Positions 14,084 to 40,014 of a stretch of DNA of 64,000 nt are shown one piece after another. Numbering within the stretch: position 1 is the first letter of the stretch; each line of letters starts with the position of its first letter. The stretch is from Haloarcula pelagica (GTDB lineage: Archaea > Halobacteriota > Halobacteria > Halobacteriales > Haloarculaceae): NCBI RefSeq assembly GCF_030127105.1, contig NZ_CP126161.1:2170001-2234000 (forward strand), written 5' to 3'. Under the pieces are notes generated by a model. It ran no database searches, was not told the origin of the DNA, and was given only the letters and a program-made list of their open reading frames with translations. The translations under genes and the position numbers were made by a program.

Positions 14084-14503
14084 ATGACACGACCGACGCG
14101 CCGGCGATTCCTCCTGTCCAGCGGTGGTCTCGCTTGTGGGTTCGCCGGGTGCCTTTCGCAAGGTACGAAATCGGAAGATTCCACAGAGACACCATCTAAC
14201 GTGGAGACTCGTGCTGACTTCCGGTTCTACAACGAGACAGGCTCGGAACTCACTCTCATGATGACTGTGACGGACATGGAGGCAAACGAGCGTATCTTAC
14301 AGCGGTCATATCAGTTGGCTCCATCTACCCAGGACGGAGATATGGTGAAAGCGACAGTTGAGGAGTTGCGAGACGCTCTCTACACATATCGGTTCACAAC
14401 CGACATAGGCCATGAGGCGACTCGTCAATATGGGCCATCAACGTCGGAGCAACTCCGCGTTCGAATCAATCCGAATCAAGTACAATTCCGGGCCGTCGCA
14501 TGA
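14084..14503 (+). CDS. Small Tat lipoprotein of unknown function, atypical base composition
   Basis: A 139-aa predicted exported lipoprotein: RPTRRRFLLSSGGLACGFAGC gives a twin-arginine signal and lipobox within 23 residues. The mature part looks like a single beta-sandwich domain (DFRFYNETGSELTLMMTVTDM, then SYQLAPSTQDGDMV), the kind seen in small haloarchaeal surface proteins. I recognise no family. Codons use A and T at third positions far more than in the surrounding genes, and the flanks are AT-richer too, which suggests recent acquisition. Confidence 0.7.
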   Translation: MTRPTRRRFLLSSGGLACGFAGCLSQGTKSEDSTETPSNVETRADFRFYNETGSELTLMMTVTDMEANERILQRSYQLAPSTQDGDMVKATVEELRDALYTYRFTTDIGHEATRQYGPSTSEQLRVRINPNQVQFRAVA

Positions 14504-14727
14504 CTTGGAAGTCATGCAACGAAGGAGATTGTTTCGAACACTCTGAAGTCATTCTGTACTGTTTGAACCCCAGTCCAATGTCCCAGTCCGCTTGGATTAA
14601 CCGATATGCAACTCTCAACGACCGGCTATTTCATCCGATAGAACAGCTGAATGATCGTATTTCAACAGAGCCGCTGTCGCGGTGGCCGGGAGCGAGTGCC
14701 GCGACGGCAGTCGCGGCCGAGCGTGCC

Positions 14728-14990
14728 GGGAGACCGGCGGTCTCCCAAACCTCGCGGTGGGACCGCGAGAACCCGGGGAAGGGCAGGGTTGCCACGAGCA
14801 TCCGGCGGCGAAGCCGCCGGTTTACCGAAAGCCTCGCTATGCTCGCCTTTCGAGCCCTGCGGTCGCGGTGCTCCCACAGGACACCGGAATCGAGGCCGGC
14901 GGCCGAGATTCCGGCCTTTTAGCGTAGATTTTTACGGCGAGTGGTGCCACAGCGGCGCGACGCGCCGCGAGGACACCCGAGCCGTAAAAA
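14728..14990. repeat. Composite stem-loop element, copy A
   Basis: A chain of perfect inverted repeats fills the gap between convergent genes (14504-14994 holds no gene). In order: GGGAGACC/GGTCTCCC; CTCGCGGT/ACCGCGAG; CCGGCGGC-GAA-GCCGCCGG at 14802-14820; CCGGAATC/GATTCCGG at 14884-14914; and outer arms TTTTTACGGC at 14929-14938 with GCCGTAAAAA at 14981-14990. The last three parts have counterparts in the same order at 38232-38331. It begins five bases beyond the stop of the minus-strand SWIM gene. A transcription end or RNA-stability element is the likely role. Confidence 0.7.
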
Positions 14991-14994
14991 GGTA

Positions 14995-15333
14995 CTATAG
15001 GAAGTCCCGAACGTCCGAGTACCACATGTCGTGGTCGTCGACGGCGTCGATGGCCTGGGCGATCCGGACCGCCAGTGCGTGCCAGCAGAGTTCGTCGGGG
15101 CCGAGGTTGTACTCGGCGTCGGCACACGTACAGCCGTCGTCCTCGACGATGTACTCGTCCTTGTGGCCGACGACGACGACGAAGTCCCGGTAGCGTTTCA
15201 CCCGGCTCTCGCCGACGGCCTCGATGGCCTGTTGGCCGCGGTCGCCGTGGGCGGCGACGATACGTTCGACTCCCTCGGGAGTCAACTCCCCGTCGGCTTC
15301 GAGCCGGGTCACCCAGTCGTCGACCGCAGTCAC
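14995..15333 (-). CDS. Small SWIM zinc-finger protein
   Basis: A 112-aa cytoplasmic protein. The central DDGCTCADAEYNLGPDELCWHALAVRIA region carries the CxC...CxH arrangement of a SWIM zinc finger at residues 69-87. SWIM domains bind DNA or proteins, and in archaea and eukaryotes some accompany recombination paralogues, but nothing nearby supports that role. The N-terminal half (VDDWVTRLEADGELTPEGVERIVAAHG) is helical and may bind a partner. It is separated from the divergent kinase gene by 110 bases. Confidence 0.7.
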   Translation of the reverse strand: MTAVDDWVTRLEADGELTPEGVERIVAAHGDRGQQAIEAVGESRVKRYRDFVVVVGHKDEYIVEDDGCTCADAEYNLGPDELCWHALAVRIAQAIDAVDDHDMWYSDVRDFL

Positions 15334-35877: not shown

Positions 35878-36918
35878 ATGTCCCGACACGACCCACCACG
35901 ACACGACGGCGGATCGCCCCCGCTCCTCCGGGTCGAGGACCTCCGGACGCACATCCACACCGACCGCGGGACCGTCCGCGCCGTCGACGGCGTGAGTTTC
36001 ACGGTCGACCGCGGTGAGGCGGTCTGTGTCGTCGGCGAGTCCGGCAGCGGCAAGAGCGTCACCTGCGAGTCCCTGACCGGCCTCGTCCCCAGTCCGCCGG
36101 CCGAACGCGTCGACGGTCGCGTCACGTTCGACGGGACCGCGCTCGACGACGACGCCGCGCGGGCGGCCGTCCGCGGGGACCGGATCGGCCACGTCTTCCA
36201 GAACCCCCAGCACGCGCTGGACCCCGTCTACACCGTCGGTGCGCAGTTGCGCGAAGCCATCACCGCCAACGCGGACGGATCCGCCGACGCGGCTCGGCGG
36301 CGGGCCGTCGCGCTGCTCGACCGTGTCGGTATCCCCGACGCCGGGAGCCGGGTCGACGACTACCCACACGAGTTCTCCGGCGGGATGTGCCAGCGCGTCG
36401 CCGTCGCGACGGCGCTTGCGGCCGACCCGGACCTGCTGATCGCCGACGAACCGACGACCGCCGTCGACGTGACGGTCCAGGCCCGCCTGATCGACCTCCT
36501 CCGGGGGTCGCTCGACGACGGGCTGGCGCTCCTGCTCGTCACCCACGACCTCCGTGTCGTCGCCGAGGTCGCCGACCGGGTCCTCGTGATGTTCGGCGGC
36601 ACCATCGTCGAGCGTGGCCCGGTCGAGGCGGTCTTCGAGCAGCCAGCCCACCCCTACACGCGGACGCTGCTTGCCAGCTACGACGGGTTCGAGCGCCGGG
36701 CCGACCGGCCCGCCCGCGACGACCTGCCGACGGACGGCTGCCGGTTCCGCGCGGAGTGTCCCCACGCCGTCGACGCCTGTGCAGGTGGCGATCAGCCACC
36801 GGCCTACGCCGTCGGCGACGACCACACCGCATCGTGTGTCCACTACGGTCCCGACGGCGACCCGGACCGACTGGCTGGGGCCGCCGACCAAGCAGAGTCG
36901 GAGGTCGTCGATGACTGA
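35878..36918 (+). CDS. dppD: Dipeptide/oligopeptide ABC transporter ATPase DppD
   Basis: A 346-aa ATPase. Walker [10 protein letters not shown] near residue 53, Q-loop [12 protein letters not shown] near 104, signature SGGMCQR near 165, Walker [13 protein letters not shown] near 184, and switch His in VTHDL near 222. The C-terminal oligopeptide/dipeptide domain includes [14 protein letters not shown] and the cluster-like cysteines in [14 protein letters not shown], probably an Fe-S or metal site of the family. Begins three bases after dppC and overlaps dppF by eight (ATGACTGA). Confidence 0.93.
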
Positions 36919-38161
36919 GGACGACAGCGCGCCGCTGCTTGCAGTCCGGGACCTGGAGCGCCACTACCCCGTCACCGAGGGACTCCTCCAGCGGGAGGTC
37001 GGCCGAATCCGGGCGGTCGACGGTGTGAGCTTCACCGTCGAGCGCGGGGAGACGCTGGGGCTGGTCGGCGAGTCCGGGAGCGGCAAGAGCACGACCGCCC
37101 GCACGATACTCGGACTCGAAACGCCGACGGCCGGAAAGATATTCTTCGAAGGAAACGATATCGACGACCTTTCAGGCGCCGCCGAGCGTGCGTTCCAGCG
37201 CCGCGTCCAGTTGGTCGTCCAGGACCCCGACGAGGCGTTCAACCCGCGGATGACTGTCGGCGAGGCCGTGGCCGAACCGCTCGCTCTCCACGGGATGGAC
37301 GACGCCGACCGGCGACGCGCGATCGTCACCGATCTGCTCGAACGGGTCGGGCTGGCGGCGGCGGACAGCGAGCGGTACCCACACGAGTTCTCCGACGGGG
37401 AGAAACAGCGCCTGGCTATCGCCCGGGCGCTCGTGGTCGACCCGGACCTGCTGGTCGCGGACGAACCCACGAGCGCGCTGGACGCCCGCGTCGAGGCCGA
37501 GATCCTCGGGTTGCTCGCCGACATCCGCGAGGCCTACGACGTGTCGATCCTGTTCATCAGCCACAATATCGACATCGTCCGGCGGTTCTGTGACCGGGTG
37601 GCCGTGATGTATCTCGGCGAACTCGTCGAGACCGGCCCGACGGACGCCGTGCTGTCGGCGCCGGCCCACCCGTACACCCGACTCCTGCTCGACTCCGTCC
37701 CGAGCCTGGACCCGACCGACCGGGGCCTCCCGGAGCCGCTGACCGACACCGTCCCCGACCCGGCCGATCCACCCACCGGCTGTCGGTTCCACCCGCGCTG
37801 TCGCTCGGTGATCCAACCGGACGGTGTGGACCTCCCGACGGACACCTGGCGGGCCGTCGCAGCGTTTCGGTTCACCCTCGACGCCGAGGCACTGCCCGAC
37901 GGACTCGACGACACGGCCGCGGTTCGGGAGACGTTCGACATCCCAGTTGATATTTCTCACGAGGGTATCGAAGCCGCGGTCGACGGCGCCGCGGCGGCCG
38001 TTGCCAGTGGTGACCTCGACCGCGCCCGCGAGCGCCTCGCGGCCGCCACGTCGACCGTCTGTGCTAGCGAGACGCCCGAGACGGCGTCCGTCGACGGCTG
38101 TTCGGTCCAGTGCCACCGCTACGACGATTCGACACCTGGTGAACCGCTCGTCGAGGACTGA
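36911..38161 (+). CDS. dppF: Dipeptide/oligopeptide ABC transporter ATPase DppF with C-terminal extension
   Basis: A 416-aa ATPase. Walker [10 protein letters not shown] near residue 54, Q-loop VVQDPDEAFNPR near 104, signature SDGEKQR near 165 (Asp replacing the second Gly), Walker B LLVADEPTSALD, and switch His in FISHNID. The oligopeptide domain ends near CRFHPRCRSVIQPDG at about residue 305. About 110 further residues follow, helical, ending in a Cys-containing stretch (STVCASETPETASVDGCSVQC). No solute-binding protein gene accompanies this operon. Confidence 0.92.
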   Translation: MTEDDSAPLLAVRDLERHYPVTEGLLQREVGRIRAVDGVSFTVERGETLGLVGESGSGKSTTARTILGLETPTAGKIFFEGNDIDDLSGAAERAFQRRVQLVVQDPDEAFNPRMTVGEAVAEPLALHGMDDADRRRAIVTDLLERVGLAAADSERYPHEFSDGEKQRLAIARALVVDPDLLVADEPTSALDARVEAEILGLLADIREAYDVSILFISHNIDIVRRFCDRVAVMYLGELVETGPTDAVLSAPAHPYTRLLLDSVPSLDPTDRGLPEPLTDTVPDPADPPTGCRFHPRCRSVIQPDGVDLPTDTWRAVAAFRFTLDAEALPDGLDDTAAVRETFDIPVDISHEGIEAAVDGAAAAVASGDLDRARERLAAATSTVCASETPETASVDGCSVQCHRYDDSTPGEPLVED

Positions 38162-38231
38162 GAAGTCGCTATCGACGCGAAAACGGAGCGAAGTCAGCGA
38201 GCGGTGCGGAGACGGTGGGGAGGCCAAGCAT

Positions 38232-38331
38232 CCGCGGCCGAAGGCCGCGGTTCTCGGAATCGCCTGCGGCGATTCCGCCTTTTTCCCCAAGTTTTTACGC
38301 GGGGGTCGAGCGCGAGGCCCTCGCGTAAAAA
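38232..38331. repeat. Composite stem-loop element, copy B
   Basis: Between dppF and the convergent thermosome gene (no gene in 38162-38337). In order: CCGCGGCC-GAA-GGCCGCGG at 38232-38250; GGAATCGCC-TGC-GGCGATTCC at 38256-38276; a T-run; and outer arms TTTTTACGCG at 38292-38301 with CGCGTAAAAA at 38322-38331. The order, the GAA loop, the GGAATC/GATTCC stem and the TTTTTACG/CGTAAAAA arms match copy A at 14802-14990. It begins six bases past the thermosome stop and could end transcription from both sides. Confidence 0.75.
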
Positions 38332-38337
38332 GTGGGC

Positions 38338-40014
38338 TTACATCATGCCGCCCATGCCGCCGCCCATGCCGCCCATGCCGCCGGGTGCGCCGCCGGGCGC
38401 GCCGCCCTCGTCGCCGTCACCGGAGGTCGAGAGGTCGCCCGCGGCGATGATGTCGTCGATCTTGAGCACCAGGTTCGCGGCCTCGACGGCCGAGGACAGC
38501 GCCTGACGCTTGGCGTGGGCCGGCTCGACGACGCCCGTTTCGAGGGTGTCCTCGACATCGCCGGTGAAGACGTTCAGGCCGGCGCTGACCTCGCCGTCCT
38601 CGTGGGCCGCGCGCAGGTCGACCAGCGTGTCGATGGAGTCCAGCCCGGCGTTCTCGGCCAGCGTGCGCGGGATGATCTCCAGCGCGTCGGCGAAGGCCTC
38701 GACGGCCAGCTGTTCGCGGCCCTCGACGGAGTCCGCGTAGTCGCGCAGGCGAGCGGCGACCTCGATTTCGGGTGCGCCGCCGCCGCCCAGAACCGTGCCG
38801 TTGGCGACGGTGCTGGCGACGACATCCAGCGCGTCCGTGACGCCGCGTTCGAGCTCGTCGACGACGTGGTCGGTCGAACCGCGAAGCAGCAGCGTGACGC
38901 CGTGGGCGTCCGCACCGGTCCCTTCGACGTAGAAGAGGCCCTCTGCCTGGTCGCGTTCGACCGAGCCGTGACCGAGGTCGTCCTCGGTGGCCGAGTCGAG
39001 GTCGGAGACGACGCGGGCGCCCAGGACTTCCTTCAGGAACTCGATGTCGGACTTCTTGGCCCGCTCGATCGCGAGGATACCCTGCTGGGCGAGGTAGTGC
39101 TGAGCCATGTCGTCGATGCCCTTCTGACAGAACAGGACGTTCGCGCCGGTCGCGGCGACCTGGTCGACCATCTCCTTGAGCTGTGCTTCTTCCTTGTCGA
39201 GGAACGTCTGGAGCTGGCTCGGGTCGTCGACGGAGAGCTGGGCGTCGACATCGGTCTCGTCCAGTTCGATGGCGGTGTCGACGAGCAGGACCTTCGCGTC
39301 GTCGACGTTCTCGGCCATCTCCTCGTGGACGGCGTCCTTGTCGATGACGGCGCCTTCGAGCAGTTCGGAGTTACCGGCCGAGCTGCCGGTCTGGGTCTCG
39401 ATGTTGAGGTATTCGAGGTCGGCGACGACGGAGCCGTCTTCGGCTTCGACGGTGACGGCGTTGACGGCGTCGACGATGAGCTGGGCGAGCAGCTCCTTGT
39501 TGAGCTCGGCGCCCTTGCCGGTCATGGAGGTCTCGGCGACCTTCCGGAGCAGTTCCTCGTCGTCGGGGTCGACATCGGTCGCGATGTCGGCGACGATGTC
39601 CTTGGACTCGCTCGCAGCCATGTCGAACCCTTTGATGATCGCCGACGGGTGGATGTCCTGTTCGAGGAGGTCCTGGGCGTTCTTGAGGAGTTCGCCCGCG
39701 ATGGCGACGGCGGAGGTGGTCCCGTCGCCGGCCTCGTCTTCCTGGGTCTCTGCGACCTCGACGATCATCGAGGCCGTCGGGTTGTCGATGTCCATCTCCT
39801 GGAGGATCGTTACCCCGTCGTTCGTGACGGTGACATCGCCCATCGAGGAGACGAGCATCTTGTCCATCCCCTTCGGACCGAGTGTCGATCGAACGGACTC
39901 GGCGACCGCGCGAGCCGCGGAGATGTTGTGTTCCTGTGCAGATTTGTCCTTCATCCGCTGGGAGTCCTCTCCCAGGATGATCATCGGCTGTCCCTGCATC
40001 TGACGCTGGCTCAT
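38338..40014 (-). CDS. ths: Thermosome (group II chaperonin) subunit
   Basis: A 558-aa subunit of the archaeal double-ring ATP-dependent folding chaperonin. N-terminal [16 protein letters not shown] near residue 40 and GDGTTSAVAIAGELL near 97 form the ATP site, with [11 protein letters not shown] and the catalytic Asp in between. [30 protein letters not shown] near 297-326 is the apical region; VLGGGGAPEIEVAARLRDYA near 400 returns to the equatorial domain. The C-terminus is the usual GGM repeat tail ending in MGGMM. A second subunit lies at 54966. Promoter and 3' element are listed separately. Confidence 0.97.
   Translation of the reverse strand: MSQRQMQGQPMIILGEDSQRMKDKSAQEHNISAARAVAESVRSTLGPKGMDKMLVSSMGDVTVTNDGVTILQEMDIDNPTASMIVEVAETQEDEAGDGTTSAVAIAGELLKNAQDLLEQDIHPSAIIKGFDMAASESKDIVADIATDVDPDDEELLRKVAETSMTGKGAELNKELLAQLIVDAVNAVTVEAEDGSVVADLEYLNIETQTGSSAGNSELLEGAVIDKDAVHEEMAENVDDAKVLLVDTAIELDETDVDAQLSVDDPSQLQTFLDKEEAQLKEMVDQVAATGANVLFCQKGIDDMAQHYLAQQGILAIERAKKSDIEFLKEVLGARVVSDLDSATEDDLGHGSVERDQAEGLFYVEGTGADAHGVTLLLRGSTDHVVDELERGVTDALDVVASTVANGTVLGGGGAPEIEVAARLRDYADSVEGREQLAVEAFADALEIIPRTLAENAGLDSIDTLVDLRAAHEDGEVSAGLNVFTGDVEDTLETGVVEPAHAKRQALSSAVEAANLVLKIDDIIAAGDLSTSGDGDEGGAPGGAPGGMGGMGGGMGGMM

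Follow-up and report, generated by a model that had tools for sequence, protein, structure and literature searches.

A recurring mosaic of covarying hairpins and T tracts behind haloarchaeal stop codons, probably a two-way transcription stop

Two places in the window (the whole 64,000-nt stretch of DNA that was analysed, lying on the 3.53-Mb contig C1 in a haloarchaeal genome of 4.46 Mb, here G000) carry a series of hairpins and T runs beside a minus-strand stop codon, which raises the question of whether the two are copies of one element and what such an element does at the ends of genes. The plus-strand order is an M1 hairpin, M2 (GGGGAAGGGCAGG), GCATCC, hp1 with a GAA loop, GGTT, hp2, a T run, a spacer, a second T5, hp3 with T5 and A5 arms, and the stop codon of the minus-strand gene (Table 1). 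A sequence-only reading had described a common order of GCATCC, two stems, a T run and a last pair of arms, and all of these parts are present in both copies A and B. Its limits for copy A, 14802-14990, were too narrow: M1-M2, a 48-nt module beyond what that reading described, begins at about 14684, two more hairpins precede GCATCC, and a further ~60 nt with hairpins separate hp1 from hp2. Copy B has at most a remnant of M1-M2. The spacer between the T runs differs, being AGCGTAGA in A and CCCCAAG in B. The proposed distance of within six bases to the minus-strand stop stands, at 4 nt (A) and 6 nt (B), but it is measured from the right-hand end of each copy and not from its start. Both copies had been placed between convergent genes, which holds for B, whereas a small plus-strand ORF (14084-14503) precedes A; it has a lipoprotein-like signal (by eye) and no Pfam match, and was missed by the gene-calling script. 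Chance matches of the two motif patterns in shuffled sequence averaged 0.00 and 0.01, and the four folds of A and B on both strands are stabler than those of shuffles (z -4.1 to -5.4). The 112-aa product of the gene adjoining copy A has no Pfam or NCBIfam match but contains, by eye, a CxC..CxH motif which we take to be SWIM-like; the best named relative of the thermosome protein beside copy B is from Halomicrobium katesii (83%), which makes Haloarculaceae the probable family of the genome.

Table 1. Parts of copies A and B and the genes that adjoin them, in window positions.
Feature	Position	Strand	Remark
Copy A, M1: GGCCGGGAGCGAG, hairpin CCGCGAC/GTCGCGG, CCGAGCG	14684-14723	+	module model R2
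Copy A, two extra hairpins, GGGAGACC/GGTCTCCC and CTCGCGGT/ACCGCGAG	14728-14769	+	also in L002/L003 and L303
Copy A, M2, conserved unpaired GGGGAAGGGCAGGG	14775-14788	+	
Copy A, GCATCC, hp1 (GAA loop), GGTT	14798-14822	+	GCATCC 14798-14803, hp1 14802-14820
Copy A, hairpins inserted between hp1 and hp2	14824-14883	+	similar insert in L308 and L328 (by eye)
Copy A, hp2 (CCGGAATC..GATTCCGG)	14884-14914	+	
Copy A, T4, spacer, T5	14917-14933	+	T4 14917-14920, T5 14929-14933; several congeners share the spacer here
Copy A, hp3, T5 and A5 arms	14929-14990	.	A5 arm 14986-14990; T5 on both strands
112-aa gene adjoining copy A	14995-15333	-	stop codon 14995-14997
Oligopeptide-transporter type ATPase gene, convergent, ends before copy B	36911-38161	+	
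Copy B, GCATCC, hp1 (GAA loop), GGTT	38228-38252	+	GCATCC 38228-38233, hp1 38232-38250
Copy B, hp2 (CGGAATCGCC..GGCGATTCCG)	38255-38277	+	
Copy B, TTTTTC, spacer, second T5	38280-38296	+	first T5 38280-38284
Copy B, hp3 (TTTTTACGCG..CGCGTAAAAA)	38292-38331	.	T5 on both strands
Thermosome gene, stop adjoins copy B	38338-40014	-	stop codon 38338-38340; PF00118

The two copies belong to a large family. The pattern GCATCC-GAA-GGTT matches eight times in the own genome, six times with the full architecture, against two matches of a reversed control. A covariance model (R1) built from four own-genome copies with this pattern returned 25 matches there up to E 10, with 12 below 1e-11 and 18 at E ≤0.0025, all on C1. 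R1 matches 31 of 32 genomes of the genus at E ≤1e-3 (517 matches in all, between 6 and 51 in each positive genome), the sole negative being a genome that is 71% complete. At 1e-4 it matches 128 of 146 genomes of the family, from 22 of 22 genera, with copy counts limited by how many candidates were scored; in five family genomes scored in more depth, the copies number 39 to 48 per genome. The order as a whole yielded 228 matching genomes out of 392; a phylum-wide draw of 196 genomes gave 20 positives, all from this same order. A plasmid search gave one partial match only (Halovenus salina). Rfam has only chance-level matches under the element and no matching family, and no published description was found in the literature searched, which leaves out most subscription journals, so that an earlier description is possible. 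The claim of a composite element repeated 3' of genes is thus upheld by the genome, genus, family and order searches together with the position data, and the check proposed for it, a search for further copies and their placement, yielded the 18 own-genome copies and a non-random placement.

The stems change in sequence but keep their pairing. In an alignment of 107 matches fitted by the model and drawn from 95 loci (A3), 98.8% of 1,362 stem cells are paired and 307 are changed on both sides; shuffles average 70.7% paired with 87 two-sided cells, and no shuffle or slid partner comes near. The hp3 flanks outside the T5/A5 helix are an independent case of covariation: they vary but pair (CCAC/GTGG, CGAC/GTCG, CTAAA/TTTAG, TGAAC/GTTCA, GTA/TAC), with at least 4 bp in 48 of the 106 distinct copies parsed from 185 loci tried, whereas 300 shuffles gave 25.7 such copies on average and 35 at most. 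The arms themselves are exactly T5 in 103 and exactly A5 in 100 of these 106 copies, and two T runs are present in 111 of 125 copies. With covariation in the R1 alignment, in M1-M2 and in hp3, the suggestion that structure is conserved over sequence is supported, and with it the interpretation put forward by the sequence-only reading.

An RNA acting on one strand is expected to accumulate G-U pairs in excess on that strand. A stem finder that scores G-T and A-C alike, applied to 124 of the 125 copies, counted 23 G-T and 33 A-C pairs in hp1, 17 and 18 in hp2, and 60 and 78 in hp3, beside 923, 1,143 and 1,262 Watson-Crick pairs respectively; G-T is therefore not in excess over A-C, and the constraint on the stems lies on both strands, such that both RNAs matter, or on DNA shape. 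The 34 tRNAs used as a wobble control gave 717 Watson-Crick, 54 G-T and no A-C pairs, although ARAGORN's own rules favour G-T. Among copies differing at one or two stem pairs, 1,387 differences are two-sided and 156 one-sided. These counts would suit an element acting at the DNA level, a set of palindromes kept at convergent ends for a cruciform or for a protein or topoisomerase site, as in bacterial BIMEs, with termination as a side effect. The retention of hp3 in tandem contexts, the pair of inverted copies that bounds a 10-kb inversion relative to G006, and the preference of REP elements for convergent and tandem sites (described in the accessible part of PMC3733652) point the same way. We nonetheless consider this unlikely: it gives no obvious role to the T5 tracts that both strands carry at fixed places, a hairpin needed in the RNA of both strands would exclude G-T and A-C equally, and contig C1, which carries the own copies, lacks a Y1 (RAYT-type) transposase. 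As a tentative and rather doubtful extension, the element may be a shape-coded boundary, free in sequence and with pairing kept on both DNA strands, that is read throughout an archaeal order as an insulator or a two-way stop and whose stem pairs are changed jointly by a templated process and not through G-U intermediates.

The M1-M2 module, searched with its own model (R2), has 2 to 21 copies per genome in 31 of 32 genomes of the genus. Its hairpin covaries (49 of 300 cells two-sided) around near-invariant unpaired bases, and the conserved GGGGAAGGGCAGG and a CTCCGT-like loop recur at unrelated loci. Of 21 module sites inspected, 17 continue into hp1, hp2, T tracts, hp3 or variants of these, while at L262, L263, L268 and L271 the module has decayed or passes into a different hairpin. 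This conservation, and the T5 directly after hp2, might be read as a structured plus-strand RNA in which M1-M2, hp1 and hp2 end at T5 and form a 3'UTR regulator or a processed small RNA. Such a role appears quite improbable, as no more than 49 to 53 of the 125 copies contain the module, which has no plus-strand gene upstream in 9 of 32 cases, no TATA-like box is seen upstream by eye, and the stems have neither a G-U excess nor a match in Rfam. A resemblance of M1-M2 to HDV-like ribozymes was set aside since there is no P2 strand and no Rfam match. Another repeat, similar to GGACTGAAAGGGCGAG, occurs at L268, L271, L055 and L058, twice directly behind M1-M2.

The position of the element was assessed on 125 copies, 18 own and 107 from relatives, out of about 517 genus matches; 80 of the relatives' copies were taken from the best matches listed and not at random, and the sample therefore leans to strong scores. 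Neighbour genes were called by a codon-usage script, and eight contexts that it left unresolved were excluded. The remaining 117 copies comprise 61 convergent, 55 tandem and one divergent context. In the same order, the own genome's 307 gene pairs divide into 61, 184 and 62 (binomial p = 9e-15 for the convergent and 2e-10 for the divergent share, with the own genome as sole background and copies that come from many genomes and are non-independent). A convergent setting is a property of 61 of the 117 resolved copies and not of all. No more than 75 nt separate the match end from the right-hand stop in 43 of the 61 convergent copies and in 26 of the 32 '--' copies, while an equally short distance between the match start and the left-hand stop is seen in only 17 of the 61 convergent copies; the anchor of the element is thus the gene beside hp3. 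This neighbour can also encode a stable RNA, either a tRNA or RNase P RNA; in '++' contexts the minus gene is uncalled, though some hide RNA genes (RNase P at L034). Neighbours confirmed by family search are ordinary genes such as thermosome, topoisomerase I, GatB, EF-2, TrkA, NifU-like protein, FKBP isomerase (the left gene of L031), proteasome beta, PAN, DNA polymerase II small subunit and aCPSF1. The gene for aCPSF1, the archaeal termination nuclease, precedes the element in three relatives (L136, L181, L227), one identified by NCBIfam and the others by sequence cluster.

The element is best explained as a vertically kept mosaic 3'-end element (an optional 48-nt module, hp1, hp2, two T5 tracts, and hp3 in which T5 pairs with A5) that probably stops transcription in both directions. 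T5 runs within 200 nt 3' of a stop are scarce (21 in 384 kb), and in a Haloferax volcanii reporter 95% of the transcripts were terminated by a T5C sequence, according to the accessible part of PMC7237163; together with the provision of T5 behind the gene for both directions, these favour a two-way terminator, and termination by the element is plausible. A transcript from the hp3 side would run into T5 at most some 5-10 nt past its stop codon, or past the end of a tRNA or RNase P RNA, and would terminate there. A polymerase from the opposite side, on a convergent gene or in stray antisense transcription, would make hp1 and hp2 first and then reach two T5 tracts, the first often TTTTTC, and would be stopped before the neighbour gene. 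Either T5 may be the one used, and hp1 to hp3 may aid termination or protect the 3' end. Back-to-back element pairs (G005, G017) are consistent with one element per convergent gene. Several findings fit this two-way stop poorly: nearly half of the resolved copies are non-convergent, the conserved M1-M2 is superfluous for a T-tract stop, the thermosome element is found in only 9 of 30 congeners, and the minus direction has T5 ahead of the hairpin, unlike a bacterial terminator. Of 23 '++' contexts, moreover, 19 retain the A5 arm; the simplest model offers no reason for this, and it weakens a simple two-gene explanation of the inverted repeat. A general-terminator hypothesis for the element as a whole was rejected, as CCAC precedes the T run in only 2 of the 21 stop-proximal cases in the 384 kb; one of the two sits at copy B, the other at L045, a weak match to the element. 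A two-way stop would bear on how transcripts end in gene-dense, G+C-rich archaeal genomes and how convergent genes avoid antisense read-through, and a defined recurring element with natural variants is a direct test bed for both. Stems with near-perfect pairing, free sequence and no wobble bias are an unusual form of covariation which could mislead RNA-gene finders.

Among known systems, the element shares with the archaeal T-tract terminators of H. volcanii T5 runs, often TTTTTC, directly 3' of genes, and its copies likewise have a T run downstream of the stop codon; it differs in having T5 on both strands within a recurring mosaic of covarying hairpins, none of which is described in the accessible part of that source (PMC7237163). 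With bacterial hairpin-plus-U-run intrinsic terminators it has in common hp2 followed by T5 on the plus strand, but it has several hairpins, a second T5, an archaeal polymerase to act on and, on the opposite strand, a T5 that precedes its hairpin. REP/BIME elements, as far as the accessible parts of PMC3733652 and PMC2817692 describe them, are also palindromic, mosaic and extragenic, lie 3' of genes in convergent or tandem arrangement and avoid divergent gaps, as the element does with one divergent context among 117. In contrast to REP palindromes, the stems of the element are not conserved in sequence, vary with compensatory change and lack a G-T excess, and the element has T5 tracts built in and no RAYT nearby. 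REPs carry a GTAG or CGTC tetranucleotide at one end (in the accessible part of PMC3733652); no such tag is constant in alignments A2 and A4, and GTAG occurs, as far as seen, only in the spacer of copies of the A type. A REP/RAYT reading was rejected, since own-genome Y1 matches lie only on contig C3 and element copies only on C1. The element probably works as a T-tract terminator does; it is placed as REP/BIMEs are, but departs from REPs in sequence, tag and transposase. The Y1 transposase gene on C3 appears split into two frames and is present in two copies (G000:C3:11149-11510 and 226429-226790). RepRanger (PMC12306157) covers archaea, and the accessible main text contains no word beginning 'Halo'.

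The element stays at the same genes for long periods. In 102 of 125 copies the 3'-facing neighbour gene is shared with a copy in another genome, and genes in multi-genome clusters make up 82 of 96 right-hand and 61 of 88 left-hand neighbours. At the gene adjoining copy A, 23 of 30 congeners carry the element by R1 (E 1e-3 or better), with differing stems, which indicates that it is old there; four more congener loci were recognised by eye (L306, L314, L320, L329). At the thermosome gene R1 finds it in 9 of 30 congeners, in four directly at the stop. A strict ungapped hp3 finder recovered 15 and 5 of 30 loci respectively, but it misses bulged arms, and the R1 counts are relied on. Among 38 thermosome loci of other archaea, an hp3-like T-run/A-run hairpin follows the stop in six by eye (L051, L055, L061, L063, L078, L082). 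In many haloarchaea the thermosome stop is instead followed directly by a second 3' repeat, which starts with GCGAGG and has CCTCGC arms, with the element absent there (most of L274-L293, and L051, L066, L086, L095 and L096).

The patchy presence at the thermosome gene, decayed copies such as L262, the near-identical own copies L002 and L003, and the exact 186-nt spacing of tandem copies in G005 could be taken as signs of a miniature mobile element whose insertions fall next to stop codons and gradually disappear. This seems very unlikely given that the same gene ends are occupied in many species and that orthologous sites carry different stems, and the identity of L002 and L003 is equally explained by recombination between inverted copies. 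Element copies do recombine: L002 and L003, which are inverted, bound the 10-kb segment that is inverted relative to G006. This is the topA segment (L240, G000:C1:857000-876000, compared to L241). The tandem array in G005 consists of three element copies and is present twice in that genome (G005:C1:56438-56897 and 3341502-3341961).
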